Source: a virus. Taken from it: a DNA stretch of 22,521 nucleotides. The notes beneath the pieces are model-generated. The model was not told where the DNA came from and ran no database searches. It was given only the letters and a program-made list of their open reading frames with translations. Of the stretch, positions 3,087 through 22,488 are shown piece after piece (position 1 is the first letter of the stretch; every line of letters begins with the position of its first letter). The position numbers were made by a program, and so were the translations under genes. The stretch spans positions 1 through 22,521 of IMG/VR virus record IMGVR_UViG_3300042868_006272; one strand, given 5' to 3'.

Positions 3087-4244
3087 TTAGCCGTCGTCGC
3101 GTCGGTCGGAAAAATACTGCCGAATGTCGGATGCCAACTGGCCGAACGGGTCGCGAAGCTCGTAGAGGCCCGAATCGGCCACGATCAAATCTCGCTGCGG
3201 GTCGAAATCGTGCCGTGCCAAAATCTCGTCTCGGCTTGTGTACTGCCGATTCGCCCTATCTCCGTGCCAAAGATGCCGCACGGTTCCCGGCACGAAAGCG
3301 ACGGACGCACGATTTACGTGCCTGACGTACTGCTGGCAATCGTCGCGAAGGTGCCGTGTCTGTCGCTCCACGTAGTTAGTCCGAGCACCTGCCACAGCCT
3401 CGAAAAACGTAGCGTCTCCGCCCCCGCAGATGTTCCGGTCATATACGCCACCAATCCTTCGCAACCACGCTACAGACGCGATCCAGGCCCCTCCCGGTGC
3501 CGTGTTGTCAATCACGCCTCTGCGTTGCCACGACGCGACACTACCGGCTCGATCCTCGATCTTTCGGCCGTCTCGATCGTAGTATGCCACCGCGTCGAAT
3601 AGCTGGACGCAATTGGCCCCGCGGTTAATTAGGTCGGTGCCGATCTCTAGCCAGTCTGGCCGCTCAAAAAGCAAATCGTGATCGATCCACGCAAAGTAAC
3701 GAGCATGCGGACCGACGCTCGCTAGGGCAAGATTGATCAGCCGCTCCTTTTGCCAAATCGCTTGATCGCTTCGAAGGTAAACCGAACCCGCGATCTCTTG
3801 GCCGCGGTTGCCCACTTCGTAGCAAGTGTGGCGACGTCCAAGCTTCGCGGCCCAGTGTGCGTAGTTCGCTCGCAATCGCTCTCGATCGTGTGTGTTGAAG
3901 TGGTAGGTCACGATTTCGGTAGCGTCCGCCACGTCGACGCGATCGCTGCACCCTTCGCAAGCTTGGCCGCGGTAAGTGCTTTTAATCAGCGGCCGCACTA
4001 AGCACCGTTCGTGCCGCTCGCAATGGTAGAGCATTGCGTTACCTTCGCAGCCACAATCTATCTTGCGGATCTCCGGCCCGCGATAGACGCAGGGTAGCTC
4101 GATACTCTTGGCCGATTGCAGCGTCGACTTATCACAAGCGGCCGCCAGTTCGTCGCCGGTGTAGGTCTGGCCGCAACTGCAACGGACCTTTGGCCCTTCG
4201 ACGTAGCCGCCTTTTTTGCACGATGGGCAACGGAAATAAATCAT
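3087..4244 (-). CDS. Zinc-ribbon glycosyltransferase-like protein (GT-A fold)
   Basis: The 385-residue protein begins with a zinc ribbon (C6, C9, C22, C24). A second Cys/His-rich block follows (C52, C64, C66, C75, C81, C96, C99). From about residue 108 a GT-A-like catalytic domain follows: a strand IVTYHFN, then YFAWIDHDLLF, in which D188-H-D190 is the DxD metal and nucleotide-sugar site. Next come NTAPGGAWIASVAWL (about 247-261), GGVYDRNICGGGDATF (265-280) and a late HLWHGD followed by NRQY. These last motifs are typical of a phage-encoded glycosyltransferase group. It would transfer a sugar in the cytoplasm; the acceptor is unknown. It starts with an ATGA overlap at the end of the tail gene series, so it is probably made late, with virion proteins. 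Donor sugar cannot be predicted. Confidence 0.75.
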   Translation of the reverse strand: MIYFRCPSCKKGGYVEGPKVRCSCGQTYTGDELAAACDKSTLQSAKSIELPCVYRGPEIRKIDCGCEGNAMLYHCERHERCLVRPLIKSTYRGQACEGCSDRVDVADATEIVTYHFNTHDRERLRANYAHWAAKLGRRHTCYEVGNRGQEIAGSVYLRSDQAIWQKERLINLALASVGPHARYFAWIDHDLLFERPDWLEIGTDLINRGANCVQLFDAVAYYDRDGRKIEDRAGSVASWQRRGVIDNTAPGGAWIASVAWLRRIGGVYDRNICGGGDATFFEAVAGARTNYVERQTRHLRDDCQQYVRHVNRASVAFVPGTVRHLWHGDRANRQYTSRDEILARHDFDPQRDLIVADSGLYELRDPFGQLASDIRQYFSDRRDDG

Positions 4245-5083
4245 AGCCGCTCGATTTCCGCGGTGAATGTGCCGACCGGGATAAACTCTTCAGTTGTCTG
4301 GTCGTAAAAATCTTCGATTCCGATCCAATCGGGATCGTTTAGATCGTAGGTGTTTACCGGTGCAATTGACCCACTGAATCGGAACGTCACGTCGCCGCTG
4401 ATGATGTCCGGAAGTTGCTTTGCGTCCCATCCAATCTTTGAGACGTCGCGATTTGCCGGTGATCCAAACGTTCCGCCGTCAATGCTATTGCCGCGAAAGT
4501 AGCTCGACGGCTCAAAGGTGAGTGCCAACATCGGATGAGAGTCAAAGAAAAACGGCGGGTCGGGTTCCGCGTTGCTTGTAATTTCGTGAGTGATTCCAGC
4601 CTTGAGAAGATAGAAAAAAACGTCGCGATCGCTTCCGGGTGCACCGCTATCTCGGGCCGATTCGCTCAAGATGCCGCAATCGGCCGTAAAGCTCTGATCA
4701 TAAAGGTCATCGATTGAATCGTAACAATGGTAAGAAATTTCGCACGCTACAGCAAAGTCACTAGCAGACCAAATGCAACCAAACTGCGATCGGACGACGT
4801 CCAGATAGTATGTGCCGTTCCAGCCCGACATGCCCGCTACGTCGGTCTTATATCCTTCAATTTCGTAATTGAATGCGTCCTGCAAACCGGCGATAACAAG
4901 CTTAATCCGCAACCCGTCGCGATAAGCTCCGTAACGGGTGAAAAGATCGCTGTTCGTGTATAGCCCGCCGCACTTACAGCAACCGCAAGCACCGTGCCGC
5001 ATCGCACCGCTAGGCCAAGGCGACAACGGGCCGGAGGTCTGCAACTCGAGTAACGGCCTCTGGCCGAACCATCGCATCGCCAT
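4241..5083 (-). CDS. Tail-end structural protein candidate with Cys cluster
   Basis: I place the start at ATG 5081-5083 (MAMRWFGQRPLLEL), which forms a TAATG overlap with the previous stop; the frame is open 23 codons further up, but that part overlaps the previous gene. The product is 280 residues. Near the N-terminus C33, C35, C36 and C38 form a CGCCKC cluster that could bind metal. The rest is beta-rich and aromatic, with many Asp and Tyr residues and no membrane segment, ending TFTAEIERL. Its place after the tape measure and before the zinc-ribbon glycosyltransferase suggests a tail tip, baseplate or receptor-binding component. No family is recognised. Confidence 0.6.
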   Translation of the reverse strand: MAMRWFGQRPLLELQTSGPLSPWPSGAMRHGACGCCKCGGLYTNSDLFTRYGAYRDGLRIKLVIAGLQDAFNYEIEGYKTDVAGMSGWNGTYYLDVVRSQFGCIWSASDFAVACEISYHCYDSIDDLYDQSFTADCGILSESARDSGAPGSDRDVFFYLLKAGITHEITSNAEPDPPFFFDSHPMLALTFEPSSYFRGNSIDGGTFGSPANRDVSKIGWDAKQLPDIISGDVTFRFSGSIAPVNTYDLNDPDWIGIEDFYDQTTEEFIPVGTFTAEIERL

Positions 5084-12131: not shown

Positions 12132-12255
12132 CCTTCACTACCTCCGCCAAGTTCATCCGACACAATAGATCCGCAACCCCGCCGCCGATAACCTCGCTGT
12201 CGAGGCGATGCCCAGCAGAAAAACGCCGCCAATCGGCTTTAAGTTCTACAAACAT
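11998..12255 (-). CDS. Small phage protein of the DWR/AGxxxD type, overlapping the connector gene
   Basis: The reading frame MFVELKADWRRFSAGHRLDS, ending near ADLLCRMNLAEVV, fits a small, common phage protein whose pattern is a hydrophobic strand, DW-----G--, -D-----A--L-----A. It usually lies between capsid and connector genes. I choose ATG 12253-12255, ten bases overlapping the glycosyltransferase stop. The first 42 residues look real. The rest (about 43-85: many Arg, Ser, Asp) runs 134 bases into the connector gene and looks like out-of-frame read-through. The frame may therefore have a trailing, nonconserved tail. Function is unknown. Confidence 0.55.
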   Translation of the reverse strand: MFVELKADWRRFSAGHRLDSEVIGGGVADLLCRMNLAEVVKDANANELASDRAGNGTERSRHDQADERPSHDRRGEASTQHRRKR

Positions 12256-12899
12256 TCCTTGACCCATTGATTCGGGTAGATGTGCTTCGCCTCAAACGTC
12301 GTCGGGTCGTGTATCACGATCATCTCTTCGAGGTGTCCGATTCTTACTTTTGGATCCAAGTACAACGAATTGCCAGCCCTTTCCCATTGTCGCCAAAAAT
12401 GAATGTCGTCGTCGGTTCGGCCGTCGCCAAACTCCCCGCGTTCGTCTGCCGAGCAAATGAACCACGGTTTCGGCACGTTCTTGAGCTTGTGCAAATCGAT
12501 CGCCGTCAAACCGAAATGAGCTGTCGCAACTCTGATCGGCGATTCTCCGATTTCGAGCTTGTTGCCATCACGTAATGAGGTCAGTACAACCGCATCGCCG
12601 CGACGTGCCTGAAAGCACGAAACCGCATCCGCTTCGGTGTTGACCAACGTCTGCACGACCTGCATCAAATCCGATGCGGTAAATACGCTGTCGCCATCGA
12701 CTGTAACTGCGACGTCTACGCCGGCCTCAATCGATTGCTCTAGCATTTTTTGCATACACTGCCCGTAAAACACGCCGCCGCTAACCTGTAGCGGGATTCC
12801 CGTTTTTCGAAATGCTGCGTCGATAACATTTCTGCAAAAACAGTTGACGTAGCGGGGTGCCGTCATGCAGCCCGTGATCTTTACTTCTTTCGTTTCCAC
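12246..12899 (-). CDS. GT-A-like glycosyltransferase inside the head-tail gene block
   Basis: I place the start at GTG 12897-12899, because GAGG lies six bases upstream; the frame is open 12 codons earlier to a TTG. The 217-residue protein begins with a strand KITGCMTAPRYVN, then a helix, and has VDVAVTVDGDSVFTASDLMQ, where D68-G-D70 is a DxD nucleotide-sugar site following a hydrophobic strand. DAVSCFQARRG and FGLTAIDLHKLKNVPKPWF match the variable part of GT-A enzymes, and TDDDIHFWRQW near residues 165-175 may supply the second metal or acceptor contact. The C-terminus IRVGHLE-like segment (KVRIGHLEEMIVIHD) ends with a typical His. The gene interrupts the capsid-to-connector order. Acceptor and donor unknown. 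Confidence 0.65.
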   Translation of the reverse strand: METKEVKITGCMTAPRYVNCFCRNVIDAAFRKTGIPLQVSGGVFYGQCMQKMLEQSIEAGVDVAVTVDGDSVFTASDLMQVVQTLVNTEADAVSCFQARRGDAVVLTSLRDGNKLEIGESPIRVATAHFGLTAIDLHKLKNVPKPWFICSADERGEFGDGRTDDDIHFWRQWERAGNSLYLDPKVRIGHLEEMIVIHDPTTFEAKHIYPNQWVKECL

Positions 12900-12924
12900 T
12901 TTGCGCCTCGGGTGGTTATTAAAC

Positions 12925-13452: not shown

Positions 13453-14799
13453 TTATCCGAGCTTGAGCGCGACCATCGGGCCGGCGTTCGTCGCGTCCCC
13501 GGTTTCGTGGACAACGATGTCGAATCGCTCAGTACAGCGGATGTAAATCGAATCCGAAGCGAAGCCAAGAGACGCATCACTGCGAATCTCCACACCGCGA
13601 CGACTGCCCATCGTTGCGGTCATAGCAAGATCGCCGAAATAGGCGATAAACTCAGCAGATGCCGCCGTCTTTGGCAATGTCTGAATAAACCGCACGGGAT
13701 AACCAAGAAACTGAAGAACCGGACCATTTCCAAGGTCTGCCGTGTTGTTTCCACCGGCTACATTCTGCAAGCGTCCAGCGGTTGCGTAGAATGCCGTTTT
13801 GCTCATGTACCACGCCGGGCTAATGCCAGGAAACTCTGGCAACATCCCAACGACAGTTTCGAAGTTTCCAAGCGTCACGTTAGCAAAGGTGGTAATGCCG
13901 GTGGCGGTCATGATCGACCCGGCGGCCAATGCGTTTTTGACGCCTACGATCCCGCCGGAAGCCGAAGTGCCGTCACCAAGCCAGCCGCAGGAATCTTCTT
14001 TGACCGCCAGAGCGTAAGCCATTTCGCGAGTCACGACGTCGGCTAGCGAGATGATCGAGTCTTCGTTCAGTTCGCTTGAAAGTTGCGTTAGAACCGCAAG
14101 CTTTTTCGCGTTCAGCTTGATTTGACCGAAAGACATTTCACTATCTGTGATCGTGTCGTTTTCGCCGACAAAGTAGGTGGTAAACCCACTAACTCGACGA
14201 GGCACTTGAGAAACCGGGCCGCTCATTGGCCATTGCATGGAGTATTGTCGGAAAGTACCGAAAGACTCCTTCAAGTCGATGAGCGTGTTTTCGAATACGT
14301 CCGGCACTAAGTAGCCGCCAGCGGAGTTGCTGTCTCCGCTGTGAGCCATTTTGACGCCGTTATCACGACACCACTGTCTGGCCCGCTCGGATCCGGCAAC
14401 GGTTGCCAAAAGAAACTGACCGCTTAGGTAAGCGTCTTCAGTAGCGTTTGGCCCCTTAAAGCTTTTGAGTGCGGTCGATCGCTTTGCGGTTGCCGGTACT
14501 CTGATCCGCGGCAGCTCTTCATCGCTCGGTGCACCCTCTTTGCCTCTTGGTAGCTGGCCGCCAAGCTTCGCCACGACGTTGGCCGCTTTGATCGCGTCAA
14601 ACCGCTCGGCCCGTGCGATCTGCGATTGCAAAGCCTGGATCTCGCCGGGCTTGTCCGAGGTGCCTTGTAGCTTGTCGACTTCCGCCGACTCTTCCGCGGT
14701 TAGATCGCGGTTTTCGGCTTTGGCGATTTCAAAAATCGCCTCACACTTGGCCGCAACATCGGCCATTTTCTCTCTTAGGGCTTTGATGTCCCATTGCAT
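13453..14799 (-). CDS. Major capsid protein (HK97 fold)
   Basis: The start is ATG 14797-14799 with AGGAACGAAACC before it. This gives 448 residues beginning MQWDIKALREKMADVAAKCE; the frame extends 38 codons up, but without a good start or RBS. Residues 1-100 form the coiled-coil delta domain that the prohead protease should remove. The mature part has DLKESFGTFRQYSMQWPMSG, QVPRRVSGFTTYFVGENDTI and LNAKKLAVLTQLSSELNEDS, the standard order of the HK97 N-arm, E-loop and spine. Next come REMAYALAVKEDSCGWLGDG and the terminal GVEIRSDASLGFASDSIYIR, in the usual final strand-plus-arm arrangement. It is preceded by the ClpP-like protease and followed by a terminator. Confidence 0.95.
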   Translation of the reverse strand: MQWDIKALREKMADVAAKCEAIFEIAKAENRDLTAEESAEVDKLQGTSDKPGEIQALQSQIARAERFDAIKAANVVAKLGGQLPRGKEGAPSDEELPRIRVPATAKRSTALKSFKGPNATEDAYLSGQFLLATVAGSERARQWCRDNGVKMAHSGDSNSAGGYLVPDVFENTLIDLKESFGTFRQYSMQWPMSGPVSQVPRRVSGFTTYFVGENDTITDSEMSFGQIKLNAKKLAVLTQLSSELNEDSIISLADVVTREMAYALAVKEDSCGWLGDGTSASGGIVGVKNALAAGSIMTATGITTFANVTLGNFETVVGMLPEFPGISPAWYMSKTAFYATAGRLQNVAGGNNTADLGNGPVLQFLGYPVRFIQTLPKTAASAEFIAYFGDLAMTATMGSRRGVEIRSDASLGFASDSIYIRCTERFDIVVHETGDATNAGPMVALKLG

Positions 14800-14964: not shown

Positions 14965-15621
14965 CTACTTTTTGAAAAAACTCGCTTTCATCGGTCTTGA
15001 GCACTTGAACCGCGAACCCGCTTGCGGCTTTACGCGATCACTCTTGGCCATCGCTGCATGTCGCATTGCTAACGCCAGCGGGTGCCACGATTCGTCCGAT
15101 AGCACACTGTCGCCGATCTCGGTTACGTAGCCTTCGGCCAACGCCTCTTCCGCCGTGTAATAAGTTTCGGCGTCAAGTTCCTCCATCACTTTCTTTTTTT
15201 CTTTGCCGCTGGCTTCGGCGTAAGCCTCTACGAGCACGTCGCGGTACTTGTCGAGAACGTCCGCCGTCTTTCGCAATTGCTCGGAGTTGCCGAACGTGAA
15301 CGTCCATGGATTGTGATTCATCAGCATCCCGTTTTTGGCGATCAAACGACGCTCGCCAGCCATCGCGATGTAACCGGCGGCCGAATACGCTGCCGAGTCG
15401 ATGATCGTGTCCGCCCCGCCAGGATGCCGCTTGATTGCGTTGTAAATGGCCCGCCCTTCGTCCACGGACCCGCCCGGGCTGTTGATGCGAATCGTCGCCC
15501 GTCGATTGCCAAGCGCCTTCAGGTCGCGAATAACGGTAGCGGAATCGATCATCCCCCAAGCCGCTTCGCCGATCACGTCATAGATAAAAAGTTCCCCAGA
15601 GTCTTTGTCAAATTCGTACAT
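14965..15621 (-). CDS. Prohead protease, ClpP-like (S14/S49 type)
   Basis: The 218-residue protein shows a ClpP-like fold: strand ELFIYDVIGE, then ATIRINSPGGSVDEGRAIYN. This is the oxyanion region (SPGGSV) followed by the helix. DSAAYSAAGYIAMAG follows, with S80 the likely nucleophile, then LMNHNPWTF with H103, and VMEELDAETYYTAEEALAEG, where D150 completes the Ser-His-Asp triad. It would cleave the delta domain of the capsid protein during head maturation. The start is two bases after the methyltransferase-like stop. Downstream is the capsid gene. The final 25 residues are basic and lack recognised features. Confidence 0.93.
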   Translation of the reverse strand: MYEFDKDSGELFIYDVIGEAAWGMIDSATVIRDLKALGNRRATIRINSPGGSVDEGRAIYNAIKRHPGGADTIIDSAAYSAAGYIAMAGERRLIAKNGMLMNHNPWTFTFGNSEQLRKTADVLDKYRDVLVEAYAEASGKEKKKVMEELDAETYYTAEEALAEGYVTEIGDSVLSDESWHPLALAMRHAAMAKSDRVKPQAGSRFKCSRPMKASFFKK

Positions 15622-15623
15622 TT

Positions 15624-16244
15624 TTAGCCCTCCAAGGCTGGCAACAGGTCGCGGCGAACGTAGATAGAATTAACACGGGAAAGAGCGATAATCGCATAGT
15701 CGCAGATTTCGCCTCCAAGTCGATCAAGTATTTGGCCAATCGTTGCTTGAAGTACAAATCCTCCTTGCTCAAGACGCTTTCCCCATAACCATTCCGGAAT
15801 ATCGCCAAGAGTGCTCGGGCTGAATGCAGCATCAAAATGCTCGACGCAAATAAAAGCCGGTCGCATTTTGAAAGCAACGTCACCAGCAATATCCAAATCG
15901 ATTGAATCAACATCGACAACCACGCCAGCAAATCGATTTGTTGTTAACGGTGGAAAATTATATTTTCCACGAACGTCGGCAAGGGGATAAACCTGCTTTA
16001 GTGCTTGCTGCCTAAGTTCATCTTGTTCAAAAAGAATCGCTGGGATGCCTTTCTGGTAAAGCGGCAGCAATGTTAGCGGCAAATCTTGGCCGCCGTCGCC
16101 TGCACCAATTTCGATTGCCTGATTGACGCCCAACCGCTCCGCCAAAGCGGCTAGATAACCGCTTTCGCCGAATTGCCAGCCGCCGCAGTGCTCATCAAGC
16201 CACTTAGCGGGCTCGTAAACCGTCCTGACCTGCCAATTATCCAT
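15624..16244 (-). CDS. SAM-dependent methyltransferase-like protein (FkbM-type)
   Basis: I choose ATG 16242-16244 (MDNWQVRTVYEPAKWLDEH) with GAGG about ten bases upstream, overlapping the portal stop by eight bases; a TTG five codons earlier is less likely. The 206-residue product contains motif I EIGAGDGGQDLPL (about residues 46-58), then an acidic position in ILFEQDELRQQAL, as in SAM binding. VVDVDSIDLDIAGDV and AFICVEHFDAAFS resemble the FkbM-type DxxxxD and glutamate strand. FkbM-type enzymes methylate sugars or small metabolites. It is inserted between portal and protease, where no virion gene is expected. GC content in parts (38-53% by hand count of 60-base lines) is lower than in the adjacent portal and protease (about 55-67%), so it looks acquired. 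Catalytic activity is unproven. Confidence 0.65.
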   Translation of the reverse strand: MDNWQVRTVYEPAKWLDEHCGGWQFGESGYLAALAERLGVNQAIEIGAGDGGQDLPLTLLPLYQKGIPAILFEQDELRQQALKQVYPLADVRGKYNFPPLTTNRFAGVVVDVDSIDLDIAGDVAFKMRPAFICVEHFDAAFSPSTLGDIPEWLWGKRLEQGGFVLQATIGQILDRLGGEICDYAIIALSRVNSIYVRRDLLPALEG

Positions 16245-17817
16245 TGCAAACCGCCTCAACTAATGCCTCTGCGCGGCCCGTCCACATCGCTACAAGCTCC
16301 GCAACGGCACCGGCTAAATCGTCTGGCCCAACTGTACCAGATAGCTCTAACAGCGTCTCATGCGATTCCTTGCAATAATCGGCCGCTATGGCTCTGTCTC
16401 CGCCAAGCTCTTCGACAACGTCGCCAAGGGTATTACGCCAGGAGCCATAGAAACGATCGATCGACCCGATAAACTTGCTCGGATTGGCCGCATAGCCGTT
16501 TACTCGCTTGGCTTCAACGCCGATCAGATGCTGTACACGCTCCGAAATGACCCGCCGATTACTTGGTCCGACCGGCTCGTTGTCTCCAGGTACTTGTTCC
16601 GTGTCTGATCGCGGATCGATCGCCGGATTGTCATACGTGTCGCCGCCATTGTATGGATTCATCGCCAAGTACTTAACGCGGATCTCGTTTGGCGACATGA
16701 TCCGGCCCATTACCATCTTCGTTGCGAAGTCTGCCGTCTTGCTCATGTCTGCTTTGAGCAATGCCGAGCGGTCGAAGGTAAATGCGTGGGTATAACGCTC
16801 CTTCTGCCGTTCGGTGAGAAGCTTCGTCCATGCCTCCTGCTCGATCTTGGTTAGCCAATTGTCGAGGCACGACGTTAAATACTCGAGATTGTGTTCTTCG
16901 AGGCTGTTGTATCCTTGCGAATCGCCATCGCCTGGAATTGATCCAAGCCCAAACCATAACATTACGTCCTGTCGCTGGAATTTTCGTTGCTCAAGCCATT
17001 GGGAATCGCGGCCATTCATTGCGACCATGTTAGCCTTGATGCCTTCGCGAAGCATCGCGGTTTTGCCTGCGTTATCTTCGCCATCGTGGGCATCTCGGAA
17101 AAAGTCGAGAAACTTTTTTGCATCGTCTTCATTGCGAAACATTCCGGGCGGGGCTTCTAGAATTAGCGATCCGCTGAAACCCTTTTTCGCGAGCGAAAAC
17201 ACTTGCTTCTCTGCCGCTAGTCCGGTGCCGAAGCTTTCGGCTGCTGTCGCAAAAACGCTCTTGCCCTGTACGCCGTCGAAGCCAAACCCCGGCACGTGAA
17301 AAACGTCCGCATCCGGAATTGCGATCACCTTTTCCGGATGCAAAATCATATCGTTGTAGAGGCTCAAATGGTCGTCGCGATCAATGATAGTAAGATGCCA
17401 CTTTTCACCATCGACCAAACCTGTGTCGCTTCGGTCTGGCAAAAGCGGGATAAGCTCTTTCGGCCTTCCCGCTGCGTCGCGAATAATCGCCGACCGCCAA
17501 TTGCCCCACAATAGAGCATGCCCCATACCCTGCTGCTTCCAATGGAATGCCGTCTGGTAGACGTTCGGGCGATACCCTACAAGCCGATAGGCAGGGTGTG
17601 ACGTGTCCGGCGTAACTTCACGCTCTCCGAGTCGATTAACAACCATTGGCAACTTGCCGACGTCGCCGCTTATTTTGTTAGTGCAGTACCAAACCGGTGC
17701 GTACTTGATCGATTTCGACGCCGTCATCCGTTCATCGAGGTCTTCTAGCGAAAACCCGAAGATACGGCCAGCAAATTGACGAAACCGTCCGGAGAACTGC
17801 GTTAAATAGTCCAGCAT
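16237..17817 (-). CDS. Portal protein (HK97 family)
   Basis: The 526-residue protein opens with a helical stretch and MTASKSIKYAPVWYCTNKIS, then DVGKLPMVVNRLGEREV, the usual N-terminal strand of HK97-type portals. YRPNVYQTAFHWKQQGMGHA with a LWGN segment marks the central clip region. WFGLGSIPGDGDSQGYNSLE and EHNLEYLTSCLDNWLTKIEQ give the typical wing/stem end, where the motif normally reads FGVPP----S-Y. The region from about 380 to 526 is an extra helical C-terminal extension. Twelve copies form the vertex ring that DNA passes through. It starts seven bases after the large terminase stop. Confidence 0.93.
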   Translation of the reverse strand: MLDYLTQFSGRFRQFAGRIFGFSLEDLDERMTASKSIKYAPVWYCTNKISGDVGKLPMVVNRLGEREVTPDTSHPAYRLVGYRPNVYQTAFHWKQQGMGHALLWGNWRSAIIRDAAGRPKELIPLLPDRSDTGLVDGEKWHLTIIDRDDHLSLYNDMILHPEKVIAIPDADVFHVPGFGFDGVQGKSVFATAAESFGTGLAAEKQVFSLAKKGFSGSLILEAPPGMFRNEDDAKKFLDFFRDAHDGEDNAGKTAMLREGIKANMVAMNGRDSQWLEQRKFQRQDVMLWFGLGSIPGDGDSQGYNSLEEHNLEYLTSCLDNWLTKIEQEAWTKLLTERQKERYTHAFTFDRSALLKADMSKTADFATKMVMGRIMSPNEIRVKYLAMNPYNGGDTYDNPAIDPRSDTEQVPGDNEPVGPSNRRVISERVQHLIGVEAKRVNGYAANPSKFIGSIDRFYGSWRNTLGDVVEELGGDRAIAADYCKESHETLLELSGTVGPDDLAGAVAELVAMWTGRAEALVEAVCNG

Positions 17818-17824
17818 CGCATCC

Positions 17825-19531
17825 CTACGCTATGAAAAGGCTTCCGGTCGGTCGTGAAGGTGCAAGCATTGCCAGCCGCAATGCCATGAGCGAAGCGACT
17901 GCCGCGTCAATTTTCTCTTCGCTGTTCTTTTTGTCCGGCATCATGCGGCCGGCGCTATTTTCGTTGGTCATCATCGCCAAAAAGCAGAACCGCAAAATGT
18001 CGTCTTCATCGTCGAATGTTACCCGATTTTCACGGATCGCGGACGCTATTTCCTGCAATGGCTCGTGAAAATGGTAGGCGTTTTGAGGCATCTTAAGCAC
18101 CTCTAAGCCCTTCTCTGCTAGCTCGTCGCCTAGTTGTGCCGCGTTGTAGGGGTCGTATGCCACCGCCTTGCAGCCCTGATCCCAAGCCACGGAGAGCAAA
18201 TCGTCGCGAAGAGACGCCACAACGTACCGCACCCGCCTCAATTGCCCTTCATGGATCCAATCAGCCCAGGGCAGCCGCGTTAAATCGCGGGTCGTGTCTT
18301 CAACGATGAAGTTCTTTGTCGTTAGTTCGTAACGCCAAATATCCTTTCCGTCTTCGTCGCGATCGTGTGGGAATCGAGCACACGATGCTCTCGATGCAAG
18401 GTCGTCACGCCCGCCAAGGTCGATGCCAGCGGTAATGCAATCGGCAGACTTCCAATCGGACAGCGGCCCCCTGCACCGGTCGAAATCTGCTGGGTTGATA
18501 AATCGGGCGGCGCTACTAACTTTGCGGTTCCCGTGATAGCGGATAAACCGAAGCATCGCCGCCGGTGACTCTTGGGCCTTCGTTGCTTGCTCTCGGAGGT
18601 ACTCGGTTTTGATCGAGACGCCGATATTTGGGTTAGCCTTTACCCAATTGCTTTCGTCAAGCGGCTCGTCATCTTCGTCAAGCTCAAAAACGTATGAAAA
18701 AAACGTTTCGTCTTTGATGTCGCCGCGGGCTACTTTCGTTGCGTAATCGTAATCCTCCTGCCAAAGCTTTGACGAATCATCTCCAGCGGTTGTGAAGTCA
18801 CCGATTAGCGGTTGAACGCGGTTGCCGCTGCCGGTAACCATCGTATCGTAAAACTTTCGGTGGTACTCTTGCCAAGCATGCTTTTCGTCCATGATCACGG
18901 CATGAGGATTTAGCCCGTCATAGGGCTTGTCGCTACCGACGCATCGAATCGACCCTTGATTGTGGGCGAAGGTAATCTGCCGATTGATCCGCGTAGACGC
19001 TTTGAGGATCCGCGGAGACTTCATTCGCATCCGCTCGATTTCGGCGTACATGACCTTTTCAACTTGTTCTTTTTTGGTCGCGCACAAAATCACTTCGGCG
19101 ACGCTTTCGGGCCCTCCGGTTATCGGGTTGCGGTCGATTGCGGCCAGTGCCAACGCAAGCCCAGCCCCGAGAGTACTCTTGCCGTTCTTGCGTGCCATCG
19201 ACCAAAAGAATCGGCGAAACCGTCGCGACTTGTCCGACGTCCGCTTCCAGCCGAATAGGCACCAAACGCCAAAAGCTTGCCACGCTTCAAGGTTAAACGG
19301 CTTGCCTGCACTGTCGCCAATTGAATGGCAAAGCATTACCGGAAAAAAATCAACATAAGCACCAGCCGCACACGAGTCGAAGTAATAAGGAAAAGCATCG
19401 TCGCCGATCTTGTCGAGGTCGTCGACGTGACGCTGCACCGCTGCACAAACGGACGAGCACACAACCAGCCGACCGCTCAATACGCCGTCGATATAGTTGC
19501 GCACCAGCCTGTCCGGCATAAAGTCAACCAC
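17825..19531 (-). CDS. Terminase large subunit
   Basis: The 568-residue protein has a Walker A motif ARKNGKST (about 113-120), preceded by FFWSM, and a Walker B HAVIMDEKHAW (D215, E216), the standard ATPase of the packaging motor. The later strand TAGIDLGGRDDLASR (D371) and VAYDPYNAAQLGDEL form part of the RNase H-like nuclease that cuts concatemers. The start is GTG 19529-19531, overlapping the small terminase stop by eight bases; ATG 19517-19519 (MPDRL) is an alternative. The P27-like small subunit and the HK97 portal flank it, which suggests a cos-type packaging system, but the cos site itself is not seen. Confidence 0.95.
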   Translation of the reverse strand: MVDFMPDRLVRNYIDGVLSGRLVVCSSVCAAVQRHVDDLDKIGDDAFPYYFDSCAAGAYVDFFPVMLCHSIGDSAGKPFNLEAWQAFGVWCLFGWKRTSDKSRRFRRFFWSMARKNGKSTLGAGLALALAAIDRNPITGGPESVAEVILCATKKEQVEKVMYAEIERMRMKSPRILKASTRINRQITFAHNQGSIRCVGSDKPYDGLNPHAVIMDEKHAWQEYHRKFYDTMVTGSGNRVQPLIGDFTTAGDDSSKLWQEDYDYATKVARGDIKDETFFSYVFELDEDDEPLDESNWVKANPNIGVSIKTEYLREQATKAQESPAAMLRFIRYHGNRKVSSAARFINPADFDRCRGPLSDWKSADCITAGIDLGGRDDLASRASCARFPHDRDEDGKDIWRYELTTKNFIVEDTTRDLTRLPWADWIHEGQLRRVRYVVASLRDDLLSVAWDQGCKAVAYDPYNAAQLGDELAEKGLEVLKMPQNAYHFHEPLQEIASAIRENRVTFDDEDDILRFCFLAMMTNENSAGRMMPDKKNSEEKIDAAVASLMALRLAMLAPSRPTGSLFIA

Positions 19532-20018
19532 GGCCCATCCGTTCCATTAAGCTATTAAATGGGTCATCAATTGCTTCATCAAGCTTTAGGCTCGTCAATT
19601 TCTGTCGACTCGCTGGCGTTAAGCCAAGCTCTGGCAGTAATCGATTCATTTCTTCTCGATACTTGTGCAGTTCTACACTGATCGGGTTGCGAGAGATCGT
19701 TCGCTTTCCGTCTTTACTCTTTTCGACCAGCACTATCCCGGTCGTCCTTACAAGTTGGCGCGCCTTCATCCAGCCGGAATACGCTGTACAGTATGAAATT
19801 AAAATTTCTCTATTGTCACTCGAAAGAACGCCGTTTTTTCGCAAATCGCTGCATAGCTCTTTCCACTTTCGCCGTTCATGTTCATCAAAATCCTCTGGCA
19901 TCTCGGGGTCGCTTCCGTCGGCAACAGGTGCTGCCTTGTTTTGCCGCTCTGGATGAATGCGATAGGTGCCGTTCGCTTTGTGTATTTCGGCCGCTATAGC
20001 CTTTCTGCCCTTTGCCAT
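19524..20018 (-). CDS. Terminase small subunit (P27 family)
   Basis: The 164-residue protein has the P27 order. A basic N-terminal arm MAKGRKAIAAEIHKANGTYR is followed by DEHERRKWKELCSDLRKNGV and LSSDNREILISYCTAYSGWM, the typical helices with L---D---L--Y---Y--W. NPISVELHKYREEMNRLLPE precedes the end LGLTPASRQKL, a strong family signature. It binds the packaging site and delivers DNA to the large subunit. The start ATG 20016-20018 has only a weak AGGG upstream. A 43-base gap separates it from the upstream sugar-enzyme genes. The downstream overlap with the large terminase is usual. Confidence 0.9.
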   Translation of the reverse strand: MAKGRKAIAAEIHKANGTYRIHPERQNKAAPVADGSDPEMPEDFDEHERRKWKELCSDLRKNGVLSSDNREILISYCTAYSGWMKARQLVRTTGIVLVEKSKDGKRTISRNPISVELHKYREEMNRLLPELGLTPASRQKLTSLKLDEAIDDPFNSLMERMGRG

Positions 20019-20061: not shown

Positions 20062-20826
20062 TTAGATAAGGTTGATCACATCGACAAGCTTTTGATAATC
20101 CAGTTCGCTTGCGTTGTGTATTTCTTTCCAAATCGATTCGTTCCGCTCTAGGTTAATCGACTCATCTTTAAGGTTTGCCCATACGTTGCTTTGCCTTGAG
20201 TGCCTGACTATTGGCCCGTTAAGGTTAAAGCACTTCCCGGATGCGTAAGCTTTCTTCTGCCAGATGAACCCTTGCCAAATGTCATCAAACCTCGCGACGT
20301 TAATAAACTGACACCACGGCCACTCCTCAGCCCTAAAAGCCAAGTTCATCCCGCAGAGTGGAAAATATCTCCCAAACTTCGGCGACCTATCAAAGCTCAT
20401 CGGCCTTAGCGCACCGTGCACAAGCTGAGACGGTGCGTCGTAATCGCCGACGTGAGACCAAAAGCCCATACTTGCGGCAACAGGCATCTCAATCGTTCGG
20501 CTAAAGTATGGCGTTCCTCTGCTTGGCGGGTCGGTCACCGAGTCGAACATAACAACTGACTGAGGTTCTAACGCCTTTTCGTGCTGCTGAATGAAGTCGC
20601 TAAAACTTTGGCCATCATGTGGGAAGCAATCATCGTCTAACACGATTACTACTTCGGCCCCCTCGTCAATCGCTCGCCTGACTCCCCTATTCTTGGTCAA
20701 AGCGCATCCGCTTTTGTCTTTATCTTGCTGGAATATAACGCGATGATCGCCGGTTATTTGCCAAGCGTCTTTAAATAGATCGATTTGTTTTTGATTGTGC
20801 CACGGCACGACGATGGTGGTTTTCAT
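20062..20826 (-). CDS. GT75-like protein (reversibly glycosylated polypeptide/UDP-arabinopyranose mutase family)
   Basis: The 254-residue protein opens with a GT-A-like strand MKTTIVVPWHNQ. IVLDDDCFP holds the DDD site (64-66). GFWSHVGDYDAPSQLVHG (121-138) corresponds to the conserved SHGLW--IPDYDAPTQ block of plant RGP proteins. GRYFPLCGMNLAFRAEEWP (152-170) corresponds to GTLFPMCGMNLAF, and RFDDIWQGFIWQ (179-190) to RYDDMWAGW. A late HS in GPIVRHSRQSNVWANLKDE matches the HSKASNPFVNLKKE end. R103 in PSRGTPYFSR may match the arginine that becomes glycosylated. These enzymes interconvert UDP-arabinopyranose and UDP-arabinofuranose. The protein is shorter than plant members (about 350). Start overlaps the TAGT gene by ATGA. 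Activity is inferred from motifs recalled, not computed. Confidence 0.75.
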   Translation of the reverse strand: MKTTIVVPWHNQKQIDLFKDAWQITGDHRVIFQQDKDKSGCALTKNRGVRRAIDEGAEVVIVLDDDCFPHDGQSFSDFIQQHEKALEPQSVVMFDSVTDPPSRGTPYFSRTIEMPVAASMGFWSHVGDYDAPSQLVHGALRPMSFDRSPKFGRYFPLCGMNLAFRAEEWPWCQFINVARFDDIWQGFIWQKKAYASGKCFNLNGPIVRHSRQSNVWANLKDESINLERNESIWKEIHNASELDYQKLVDVINLI

Positions 20827-21698
20827 TTCTTGTGGCTTTCGTCGATGATTTTAGGGACTGCCTTATGCCAGTTAATCTTGTGGTGAATGCGGGAAGTGTC
20901 GCTTCCAGGAGGGTCACCCATCGTTCCAATTTGAACGCATGACGGATTCGCCATCACCGTATAAAACGACTTGACATAGGTTCCGCTGCTTAAATACAAA
21001 TCCGACATTCCTCCAGGCGTTACTTGAGTCGGCTTCTGCACGAGCATAGCTTGCATAACAGTAAAGAACAAATCGCCGCGATGCCCATACGTGACATACG
21101 CCGAAACGTCCTCATTCATGTGCCCGAAAAATGGCCCGAACCTTCTTTCAGAGTCGCAAAACCAGCTGTTCATGCACTTGCGCCTAAGTATTCTTCTGTT
21201 TAGCCTTGCCCCCTTTGGCCCAGCCCCTCCAATCCAGTCGCCCGCCTGCGACATCGCCACGGCTGAACAATTTGTTTTCTGCAAGAACAACAACATCTCG
21301 GTAAAAATCGCGTCCATACTTAACACAATTCCTGCCGTCACAAAATTTCCCTTGCTGTCAATTCGTACGCTGAATGCCGTGTAGTCGTCATCAAGCTGCA
21401 CAAAGTATCGACACCCTACTTGCTTGGCTAAATCCCAACAGGCGTTGCGAGCATAGACGATTGCCTTGCGGTGGTTGAAGTTATCGCCTTCGTCGGTCCT
21501 TGCCGCCCACTCCGCTTTGTTAAACTGCAAAACCTTATCGCCGAACCGCTGCCGGTAACCATCGGCCTGCTTGTCTTCGTCGTCAATGACGATATAAACC
21601 TTGCCGGTGTAGCCTGCCTTCATCATCGTGTCGTAAGTGTGAACACGATCCGGCCTGCCGTGAGTCAGAACGAACGCACAGAAGTCATTACGCATCAT
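20823..21698 (-). CDS. TET-associated-type glycosyltransferase (TAGT-like)
   Basis: The 291-residue protein starts at ATG 21696-21698 with GAGG upstream, overlapping the ParB-domain gene by 11 bases. It reads FCAFVLTHGRPDRVHTYDTM, YTGKVYIVIDDEDKQADGYR and AIVYARNACWDLAKQVGCRY. Next comes FVQLDDDYTAF with the DDD site (103-105), which would bind metal and the nucleotide sugar. This order (HGRPD, IDDEDK, ARN-C, QLDDDY) is what I know from the TAGT family. That family was proposed to glycosylate modified bases such as hydroxymethylcytosine in phage DNA. No TET/JBP oxygenase or hydroxymethylase is in the window, so the acceptor could be DNA or protein. GC is low here (about 40% in one counted line). 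Confidence 0.75.
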   Translation of the reverse strand: MMRNDFCAFVLTHGRPDRVHTYDTMMKAGYTGKVYIVIDDEDKQADGYRQRFGDKVLQFNKAEWAARTDEGDNFNHRKAIVYARNACWDLAKQVGCRYFVQLDDDYTAFSVRIDSKGNFVTAGIVLSMDAIFTEMLLFLQKTNCSAVAMSQAGDWIGGAGPKGARLNRRILRRKCMNSWFCDSERRFGPFFGHMNEDVSAYVTYGHRGDLFFTVMQAMLVQKPTQVTPGGMSDLYLSSGTYVKSFYTVMANPSCVQIGTMGDPPGSDTSRIHHKINWHKAVPKIIDESHKK

Positions 21699-22488
21699 CG
21701 TCGGCCTCGCCTAGTTCAAGGTCAGCGATTGCCCCAAGTCGCTCCGACAGATGCACGAATCCGTTTTGAATTGCCTTCTGAAAGTCAATGATGATCAGCC
21801 CAGAACGCTCCATCAGGCTTTGAACTTCTTTTGGTGCGTGACAGTAATACTCGGCGATGCTTCGGAAGTTAAAAACCGTATGCCGCTGCGCGGCTGTTAG
21901 CAGGAAATCGCGGACCTCATCAGGCAACTTGGCTTTCTCAATTTCCTCGCAAAGCTCGTTGGTTTTGGTTTTGTCTGAAAGCTCGCACACTGGCGGAAGT
22001 TCGCCCTTGGGTTCATAGATTGGTGCCTCGATTTTGCCGGTGTAGGGATTGTCTGCACTATCCACGCTGCCGGTCGTGCCGTCGCCTGTCAGTTCATCCA
22101 ACAGCGCAGCCAGTTCATCCCCATCAAACCCCGTCGCGTCTAGCAACGCCTCATCCTCAGTCAGCAGCCCCTGCAACTGTGCGGCGAGAATGTCGTCGTC
22201 CCATTCGGCAAGTTCGGCCGTGCGGTTGTCCGCAATGGCGTAGGCGATCGCGTCGCTGCTTGTAAGATCCGTCCGCACGATCTGAATAGTATCCCAGCCT
22301 AATTGCTTGGCCGCTTCTAGGCGACAATTTCCGACGCGTACGACGTTGCTTTTATCGACCACCAACGGGATCTGCTGGCCGAAGCGGCGGAAGCTTGCGA
22401 TCACCGTTTCAAGGTTGCGGGCTCCGTGCTTTCGAGCGTTAGCCGGATCAGGGCTCAGTAAATCGATTTTGACCGTTTCAACTATCAT
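21688..22488 (-). CDS. ParB/Srx-domain protein with distinct C-terminal domain
   Basis: The 266-residue protein has a full ParB N-terminal domain: DLLSPDPANARKHGARNLET, then FGQQIPLVVDKSNVVRVGNC and LGWDTIQIVRTDLTSSDAIA with YAIADNRTAELAEWD. GNCR (53-56) replaces the usual GHGR/GNGR nucleotide-binding loop. GFDGDELAALLDEL (120-133) ends the domain. After a linker, GKIEAPIYEPKGELPPV begins a second domain (about 150-258) with HTVFNFRSIAEYYCHAPKEV and IIIDFQKAIQNGFV. I associate this second domain with phage ParB-like proteins next to glycosyltransferases. It may be a nucleotidyl-processing or DNA-modification partner, rather than a partition protein; no ParA is seen. RBS GAGGA precedes ATG 22486-22488, about 33 bases from the window edge. 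Confidence 0.8.
   Translation of the reverse strand: MIVETVKIDLLSPDPANARKHGARNLETVIASFRRFGQQIPLVVDKSNVVRVGNCRLEAAKQLGWDTIQIVRTDLTSSDAIAYAIADNRTAELAEWDDDILAAQLQGLLTEDEALLDATGFDGDELAALLDELTGDGTTGSVDSADNPYTGKIEAPIYEPKGELPPVCELSDKTKTNELCEEIEKAKLPDEVRDFLLTAAQRHTVFNFRSIAEYYCHAPKEVQSLMERSGLIIIDFQKAIQNGFVHLSERLGAIADLELGEADDDA

Follow-up and report, generated by a model that had tools for sequence, protein, structure and literature searches.

A methyltransferase gene between the portal and head maturation protease genes of uncultivated tailed phages, with an interior exchanged between relatives

Introduction

In the cluster O phage Catdawg, an O-methyltransferase and three glycosyltransferases are encoded between the portal and the protease. 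The cluster O study proposes that these enzymes add methyl and glycan groups to the capsid; it reports the slot proteins from infected cells but did not identify them in purified virions of Corndog (PMC4351075). The O-methyltransferases, gp33/gp35 of Catdawg and Corndog (phrog_6608, TylF-like, about 195 aa), occupy the slot that runs from the portal end to the capsid maturation protease, in an operon that also encodes glycosyltransferases. By similarity, a relative of Catdawg gp33 is the C-terminal methyltransferase-like part of Che8 gp108, and glycans have been reported on the Che8 capsid (PMC11256854). Virion glycosylation of the Che8 type combines phage-coded glycosyltransferases with a methyltransferase-like part, encoded at the right end of the genome.

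Here we analyzed a 22.5 kb IMG/VR record (the window, i.e., the whole stretch of DNA analyzed), in which the terminase, portal, protease, capsid and tail genes all lie on one strand. A methyltransferase gene fills the same slot as in cluster O, and a glycosyltransferase-like gene is found in its operon. However, sequence homology between the cluster O enzyme and that of the window was not detected (BLASTP E 1.1, hhalign 0.9%), cluster O has three glycosyltransferases in the slot whereas the window has one glycosyltransferase-like gene after the capsid gene, and exchange of a gene core, as described below, is not reported in the accessible text of PMC4351075. The module that we propose would have the components of the Che8 type, but its genes lie in the head operon. 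In two groups of phages, methyltransferases unrelated to each other occupy the portal-protease slot, each with glycosyltransferase or glycosyltransferase-like genes in the operon, and this is the strongest argument by analogy for a role in glycan modification. Except for the cluster O paper, which concerns an unrelated enzyme, neither the methyltransferase family nor its slot was found in print in the literature covered, mostly outside subscription journals. The enzyme fold is ordinary; what is new is a family, unnamed in the libraries used, in a known kind of setting, and it extends the few cases in which a phage head operon includes enzymes that modify sugars.

Results and Discussion

The methyltransferase gene and its fold

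The features of the locus are presented in Table 1. The methyltransferase gene reads on the minus strand from an ATG at 16244 to a stop at 15624-15626, exactly as placed in the preliminary description of this DNA, which had also pointed out the SAM motif I EIGAGDG (residues 45-51). The first 8 bases of the gene are shared with the end of the portal gene (16237), and 2 bases separate its own end from the ClpP-type protease gene (15621). The slot had been described as one in which portal and protease are normally contiguous, and this agrees with at least 17 relatives in which ClpP directly follows the portal.

Table 1. Features of the methyltransferase locus (positions in the window).
Feature	Position	Strand	Basis
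Class I SAM methyltransferase gene, 206 aa, intact	15624..16244	-	fold model and motifs
Portal gene, upstream neighbour	16237..17817	-	PF04860
ClpP-type head maturation protease gene, downstream neighbour	14965..15621	-	PF00574 and phrog_94
Major capsid protein gene	13453..14799	-	PF05065
Glycosyltransferase-like gene, 224 aa, co-conserved partner	12246..12920	-	DxD pattern
Motif I EIGAGDG, residues 45-51	16092..16112	-	ExGxGDG invariant in 26/26 homologues
EQDE, residues 73-76, end of strand 2	16017..16028	-	E73 invariant in 26/26
Strand 4 motif VVVDVDSID, residues 108-116	15897..15923	-	alignment and model
Strand 5 motif CVEHFD, residues 133-138	15831..15848	-	alignment and model
Exchanged, low-GC3 core, residues 56-188	15681..16079	-	diversity, pN/pS, tree tests, GC3
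Conserved C-terminal end, residues 189-206	15627..15680	-	pN/pS 0

A structure predicted from 26 sequences reached a pLDDT of 87.6 and a pTM of 0.89; an earlier model from 13 close sequences was poor (pLDDT 50) and was set aside. The best Foldseek match in the PDB was the sugar N,N-dimethyltransferase TylM1 (E 3.9e-5, TM 0.52). Foldseek returned 80 PDB matches at E <= 0.001, and nearly all of the 50 matches listed were methyltransferases. With VIA, Z reached 12.0 with many methyltransferases tied, and was at least 8 for 811 of 1000 chains. The sugar N-methyltransferases TylM1 and DesVI are among the top Foldseek matches, at about 13% identity and tied with many class I methyltransferases, a likeness from which the substrate is not readable. 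Beyond motif I and E73, residues D111/D113/D116 and E135/H136/D138 are invariant in all 26 homologues, down to 34-35% identity. The methyltransferase identity first proposed from motif I is thus borne out as a fold, by the model and its PDB neighbours, together with the conservation of this motif. By fold and motif, the gene product is a class I SAM-dependent methyltransferase, of predicted activity.

A protein that keeps this fold and serves head assembly with no catalytic role would suit the fixed place in the head operon and a predicted enzyme without known activity. We consider this very unlikely, since motif I and the acids of strands 2, 4 and 5 are invariant in 26 of 26 sequences while the rest of the core varies, and since the gene is dispensable, the slot being empty in at least 17 relatives. 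DNA methyltransferases carry a catalytic (D/N/S)PP(Y/F/W) or PC motif at strand 4. Strand 4 of the window enzyme reads VVVDVDSID, without a DNA methyltransferase catalytic motif, and methylation of DNA was rejected as a function.

Searched as a single protein, the methyltransferase gave zero matches in Pfam, PHROGs, NCBIfam, PDB sequences and INPHARED phages. The FkbM family (PF05050, including the 2-O-methyltransferase NoeI) aligns with the window enzyme at motif I and at the strand-2 acid. Both were in register in an hhalign comparison with a broad profile of 7 FkbM sequences (66%, E 5.6e-5, 57 columns), whereas a single FkbM sequence and a narrow FkbM profile gave 0.2% and 0.3%, against 0.1% for an unrelated glycosyltransferase control. 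None of the 26 family members matched PF05050 at E up to 10, and the curated cut-off was missed. The two families are linked by a relative, the methyltransferase of L175:5262-5810, which aligns to the window's family along the greater part of its sequence (97%, E 8.8e-11) and scores E 0.0086 and 16.6 bits against PF05050, below the cut-off of 22.7. Since no member passes PF05050 and the profile comparisons gave differing results, 'FkbM-like' denotes resemblance and not membership. No FkbM structure was among the matches listed in the PDB fold lists, which excludes nothing.

Distribution of the gene in the slot

IMG/VR holds 20 close methyltransferase loci (72-100% identity), a distant homologue, L034 (45% by tblastn, 48-49% in alignments), a second clade at 42-47%, in which two short fragments reach 51% and 57%, and a most distant homologue, L063, at 34-35%. 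The order TerL, portal, methyltransferase, ClpP, major capsid protein, glycosyltransferase-like gene is preserved in homologues at 34-35 to 49% identity. A portal query, which is blind to the methyltransferase, retrieved 21 loci; 20 extend past the portal and the methyltransferase is present in all 20. In one portal-query locus, only the first 33 residues of the methyltransferase are present, at the contig end. A ClpP profile query, taken as its best 80 of 174 loci, returned 21 known relatives and 59 new records: 41 had the gene in the slot, with matches to the methyltransferase HMM at E 7e-52 or better, 17 had an empty slot and 1 was unreadable. Over 105 records (the ClpP query counted as its best 80 of 174), there were 84 carriers, 17 empty slots, 1 unreadable slot and 3 records without ClpP shown. 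The methyltransferase thus lies between portal and ClpP in 84 of 101 readable records, many of which were fetched by the gene itself. This count treats L176, unreadable in a first reading, as an empty slot, and omits L016 and the contigs of L015 (a near-duplicate of the window), L031 and L033.

A ClpP tree with 19 rows, in which the deep branches were not resolved, requires 4 changes between presence and absence of the gene, and well-supported branches force at least 2 of them; the slot has therefore been filled or emptied more than once. The methyltransferase gene is a long-standing head-operon member in this group of uncultivated tailed phages. The preliminary description had taken it for a recent horizontal acquisition. 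As far as the whole gene is concerned, this does not agree with homologues down to 34-35% identity or with its presence in 84 of 101 readable records. The gene is kept in the slot in most relatives, though at least 17 have an empty one. No relatives were found among INPHARED phages or in the genome contigs searched for a host.

A co-conserved glycosyltransferase-like gene

The glycosyltransferase-like gene at 12246-12920 sits between the capsid gene and the next structural genes. Residues D75 and D77 of its DxD pattern are invariant in 8 of 8 members. Against Pfam no cut-off was reached, 1 of the 8 members matching Glycos_transf_2 at E 0.11, and PDB sequences returned only an unrelated chain (E 0.67). 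The gene was present in 57 of 58 readable methyltransferase carriers (at least 3.5 kb from the ClpP start, or partner seen; shorter ORFs allowed), and absent from all 8 records that had an empty slot, the same room and no visible methyltransferase. L138 is the sole readable slot carrier without it in view. In L175:4585-5813, both genes are adjacent between ClpP and capsid, the slot is empty and the portal is joined to ClpP. After dereplication at 90% ClpP identity, seven of ten representatives had both genes, L175 had both in the moved position, L187 had neither and L172 was too short. Over so few lineages, this co-occurrence is a pattern and not a statistical proof. We infer that the methyltransferase and the 12246-12920 protein, which are seen to co-occur, would act jointly as a two-gene glycan module.

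The methyltransferase might instead act directly on a side chain of a head protein (portal, protease or capsid), with no glycan involved. That 84 of 101 readable records have the gene between portal and protease is consistent with this, as is the class I fold, which is also that of protein methyltransferases, the L11 methylase of the fold list among them. However, the co-occurrence with a glycosyltransferase-like gene and the joint displacement of the pair in L175 argue against it. Moreover, core alleles of the enzyme mix freely with capsid alleles, and portals are nearly constant. We therefore consider direct methylation of a head protein unlikely.

The window carries further glycosyltransferase genes. 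Upstream of the terminase, positions 20062-22488 hold an RGP-like glycosyltransferase, a TET-associated glycosyltransferase (TAGT, PF20691) and a ParB-like gene, which suggests DNA hypermodification. The presence of TAGT and of the RGP-like enzyme (GT20062) would be in line with a methyltransferase acting on a sugar that these enzymes put on phage DNA. By contrast, of 46 records, most of them fragments, only 2 have TAGT (at 20823 in the window), namely the window and its near-duplicate, and the L030 contig has no TAGT over 3.8 kb upstream of TerS; we regard a DNA sugar as a very improbable substrate. The TET-type glycosyltransferase is not the stable partner of the methyltransferase. The preliminary description had suggested that the enzyme methylates the sugar made by the phage's glycosyltransferases, which is plausible for the co-occurring 12246-12920 gene and does not hold for TAGT. 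TET/JBP (PF12851) was found in 0 of 46 records, a result that shows little since control genomes also gave nothing. In place of the glycosyltransferase genes of the window, L030:397-3659, upstream of TerS, contains structural-looking and zinc-ribbon/HNH-like genes. Elsewhere in the window, the 385 aa product of 3087-4244 has a zinc-ribbon-like N-terminal part and a glycosyltransferase-like look, without a family match.

GC content and codon usage

The GC3 of the methyltransferase gene (0.454) is the lowest of 29 genes (z -3.06). Its GC is 0.496 (z -1.48 over 29 genes), with lower values for TerS (0.485) and GT20062 (0.484). The lower GC reported earlier is thus right in direction, and its figures need correction: lines of 60 bases range over 40-60% in the methyltransferase gene (eleven lines) instead of 38-53%, and the neighbours, given as about 55-67%, actually span 40-68% (ClpP) and 43-62% (portal). 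Codon usage diverges from GC3 in this respect, as the gene's synonymous codon likelihood, scored against codon usage pooled over all other genes, is unremarkable (z -0.82); 7 of 28 other genes have a lower value, three of them near -2.7.

The GC3 deficit is confined to residues 56-190 (0.356, against 0.636 for residues 1-55). GC3 fell to 0.40 or less in 42 of 3286 windows of 133 codons, every one inside the methyltransferase gene. Core GC3 was 0.35-0.53 in the window and its close relatives (all 20 readable rows). Elsewhere, GC3 of the whole gene was 0.635 in L034, 0.53-0.56 in four second-clade members, 0.465 in L063 and 0.49-0.59 in a third clade. Core-only queries did not reveal a donor for this low-GC3 segment.

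Exchange of the gene's interior

Among close relatives, mean nucleotide diversity was 0.080 for TerL, 0.077 for the portal, 0.189 for the methyltransferase, 0.074 for ClpP and 0.187 for the capsid. Along the methyltransferase gene, it was 0.02-0.10 over residues 1-50, rose to as much as 0.41 inside and fell to 0.03-0.05 after residue 190. The ratio pN/pS was 0.333 for the core (a rough value, because mean core pS is high at 0.55), 0.105 for residues 1-55 and 0 for residues 189-206, compared with 0.031 for the portal, 0.043 for ClpP and 0.304 for the capsid beyond residue 80; L018, L014, L031 and L033 were omitted from these calculations, and the portal GC3 of L018 (few columns) was likewise disregarded. 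The variable elements are loop 95-105, helix 116-128, loop 139-149 and residues 169-188, and the motif-bearing strands are conserved. In the second clade, the variability of the methyltransferase does not exceed that of the adjacent genes (0.157 vs 0.148 and 0.146), whereas in the third clade it does (0.223, core 0.250, vs 0.155 and 0.143).

In AU tests on 15 sequences, the portal tree and the core tree rejected each other (p 4e-84 and 0.009), and one pair of relatives has portals 99.9% identical and methyltransferase cores 61% identical. Between L011 and L027, a single difference was observed from about 19290 to 16213 (about 3 kb, TerL and portal), followed by 216 differences from 16212 to 15013 and zero in the next about 650 bases, at the end of the shared stretch; this exchange carried the methyltransferase along with ClpP. 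Comparison of L003 with L036 shows identity over about 17430-16712, then moderate divergence as far as about 15930 and strong divergence as far as about 15690, with a return to identity over about 15510-15270. This pattern suggests that a breakpoint lies within the methyltransferase gene. Conversely, L011 and L030 have identical methyltransferases and portals 92.1% identical. The interior of the methyltransferase gene has been exchanged by homologous recombination between near-isogenic phages, and the low GC3 noticed in the preliminary description is the mark of this exchanged interior. Its word 'horizontal' therefore fits the interior, by the low GC3 of residues 56-190 and the allele exchange, and not the gene as a whole. 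On the pattern of differences, a diversity-generating retroelement was rejected, as they form long, allele-like stretches with conserved motifs between them and not scattered codons.

All the relatives are metagenome contigs, and the breakpoints fall within conserved stretches, at which an assembler may pass from one sequence to another, as chimaeric assembly would produce. However, the same configurations recur in different metagenomes (L026/L027; L010/L011/L030; L003/L004/L005/L014/L016), and the core's low GC3 is seen in the window alone, without any comparison. An assembly artefact is, in our view, highly improbable.

Proposed function

The reading that we favour, at about an even chance, is that the methyltransferase and the 12246-12920 glycosyltransferase-like protein finish an O-methylated glycan, probably on the virion, and that the core of the enzyme is exchanged between phages. 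The 12246-12920 protein would attach a sugar to an acceptor, and the methyltransferase would cap this sugar by SAM-dependent O-methylation. Expression among head genes suggests a virion protein as acceptor, most likely the capsid or another head protein, and the modification would occur around head assembly. The loops of class I methyltransferases usually face the substrate. The exchanged interior, strands 2-6 with their loops, may thus change the decoration pattern. Core types and capsid types are freely combined among close relatives, which argues against a tight fit of the enzyme to the variable part of the capsid.

The pair could also modify a surface glycan of the host instead of the virion, in serotype conversion or superinfection exclusion. 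Core diversity would fit varied host glycans, and FkbM-type enzymes include NoeI, annotated as a Nod-factor methyltransferase. Both genes, however, lie inside the head operon, where late expression would be expected, and the ORF list has no membrane or lipid-carrier gene beside the pair; a host-surface target seems improbable to us.

Returning to a virion glycan, a more specific version, unlikely in our opinion, is that this glycan is varied as a serotype: the fixed ends of the gene would be recombination anchors, the core a cassette swapped by plain homologous recombination, and methylation of the capsid glycan would be under diversifying selection. If the substrate is a virion glycan, core exchange would provide a set of naturally occurring alleles with which to study the selection acting on the surface decoration of phages. 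If true, this would be selection on decoration outside animals, where antibodies cannot be the cause.

Other variable places in the window

Beside the methyltransferase, the other variable places are the capsid, TerS, the tape measure and the genes at 4241 and 5083. Beyond about residue 80 (13453-14559), the capsid occurs in at least three allele classes, at about 69%, 90% and 99% protein identity to the window, and these classes are found in otherwise similar phages. Gene 4241-5029 is only 44-45% identical in L070 and L071, despite a next gene (3087-4244) whose product is about 90% conserved in both. TerS (19524-20018) has a GC3 of 0.485, the second lowest of the genes, and is 61-62% identical to the TerS of close relatives, though their large terminases are 96-99% identical. 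The low GC3 and the divergent TerS beside a near-identical TerL point to a second replaced segment.
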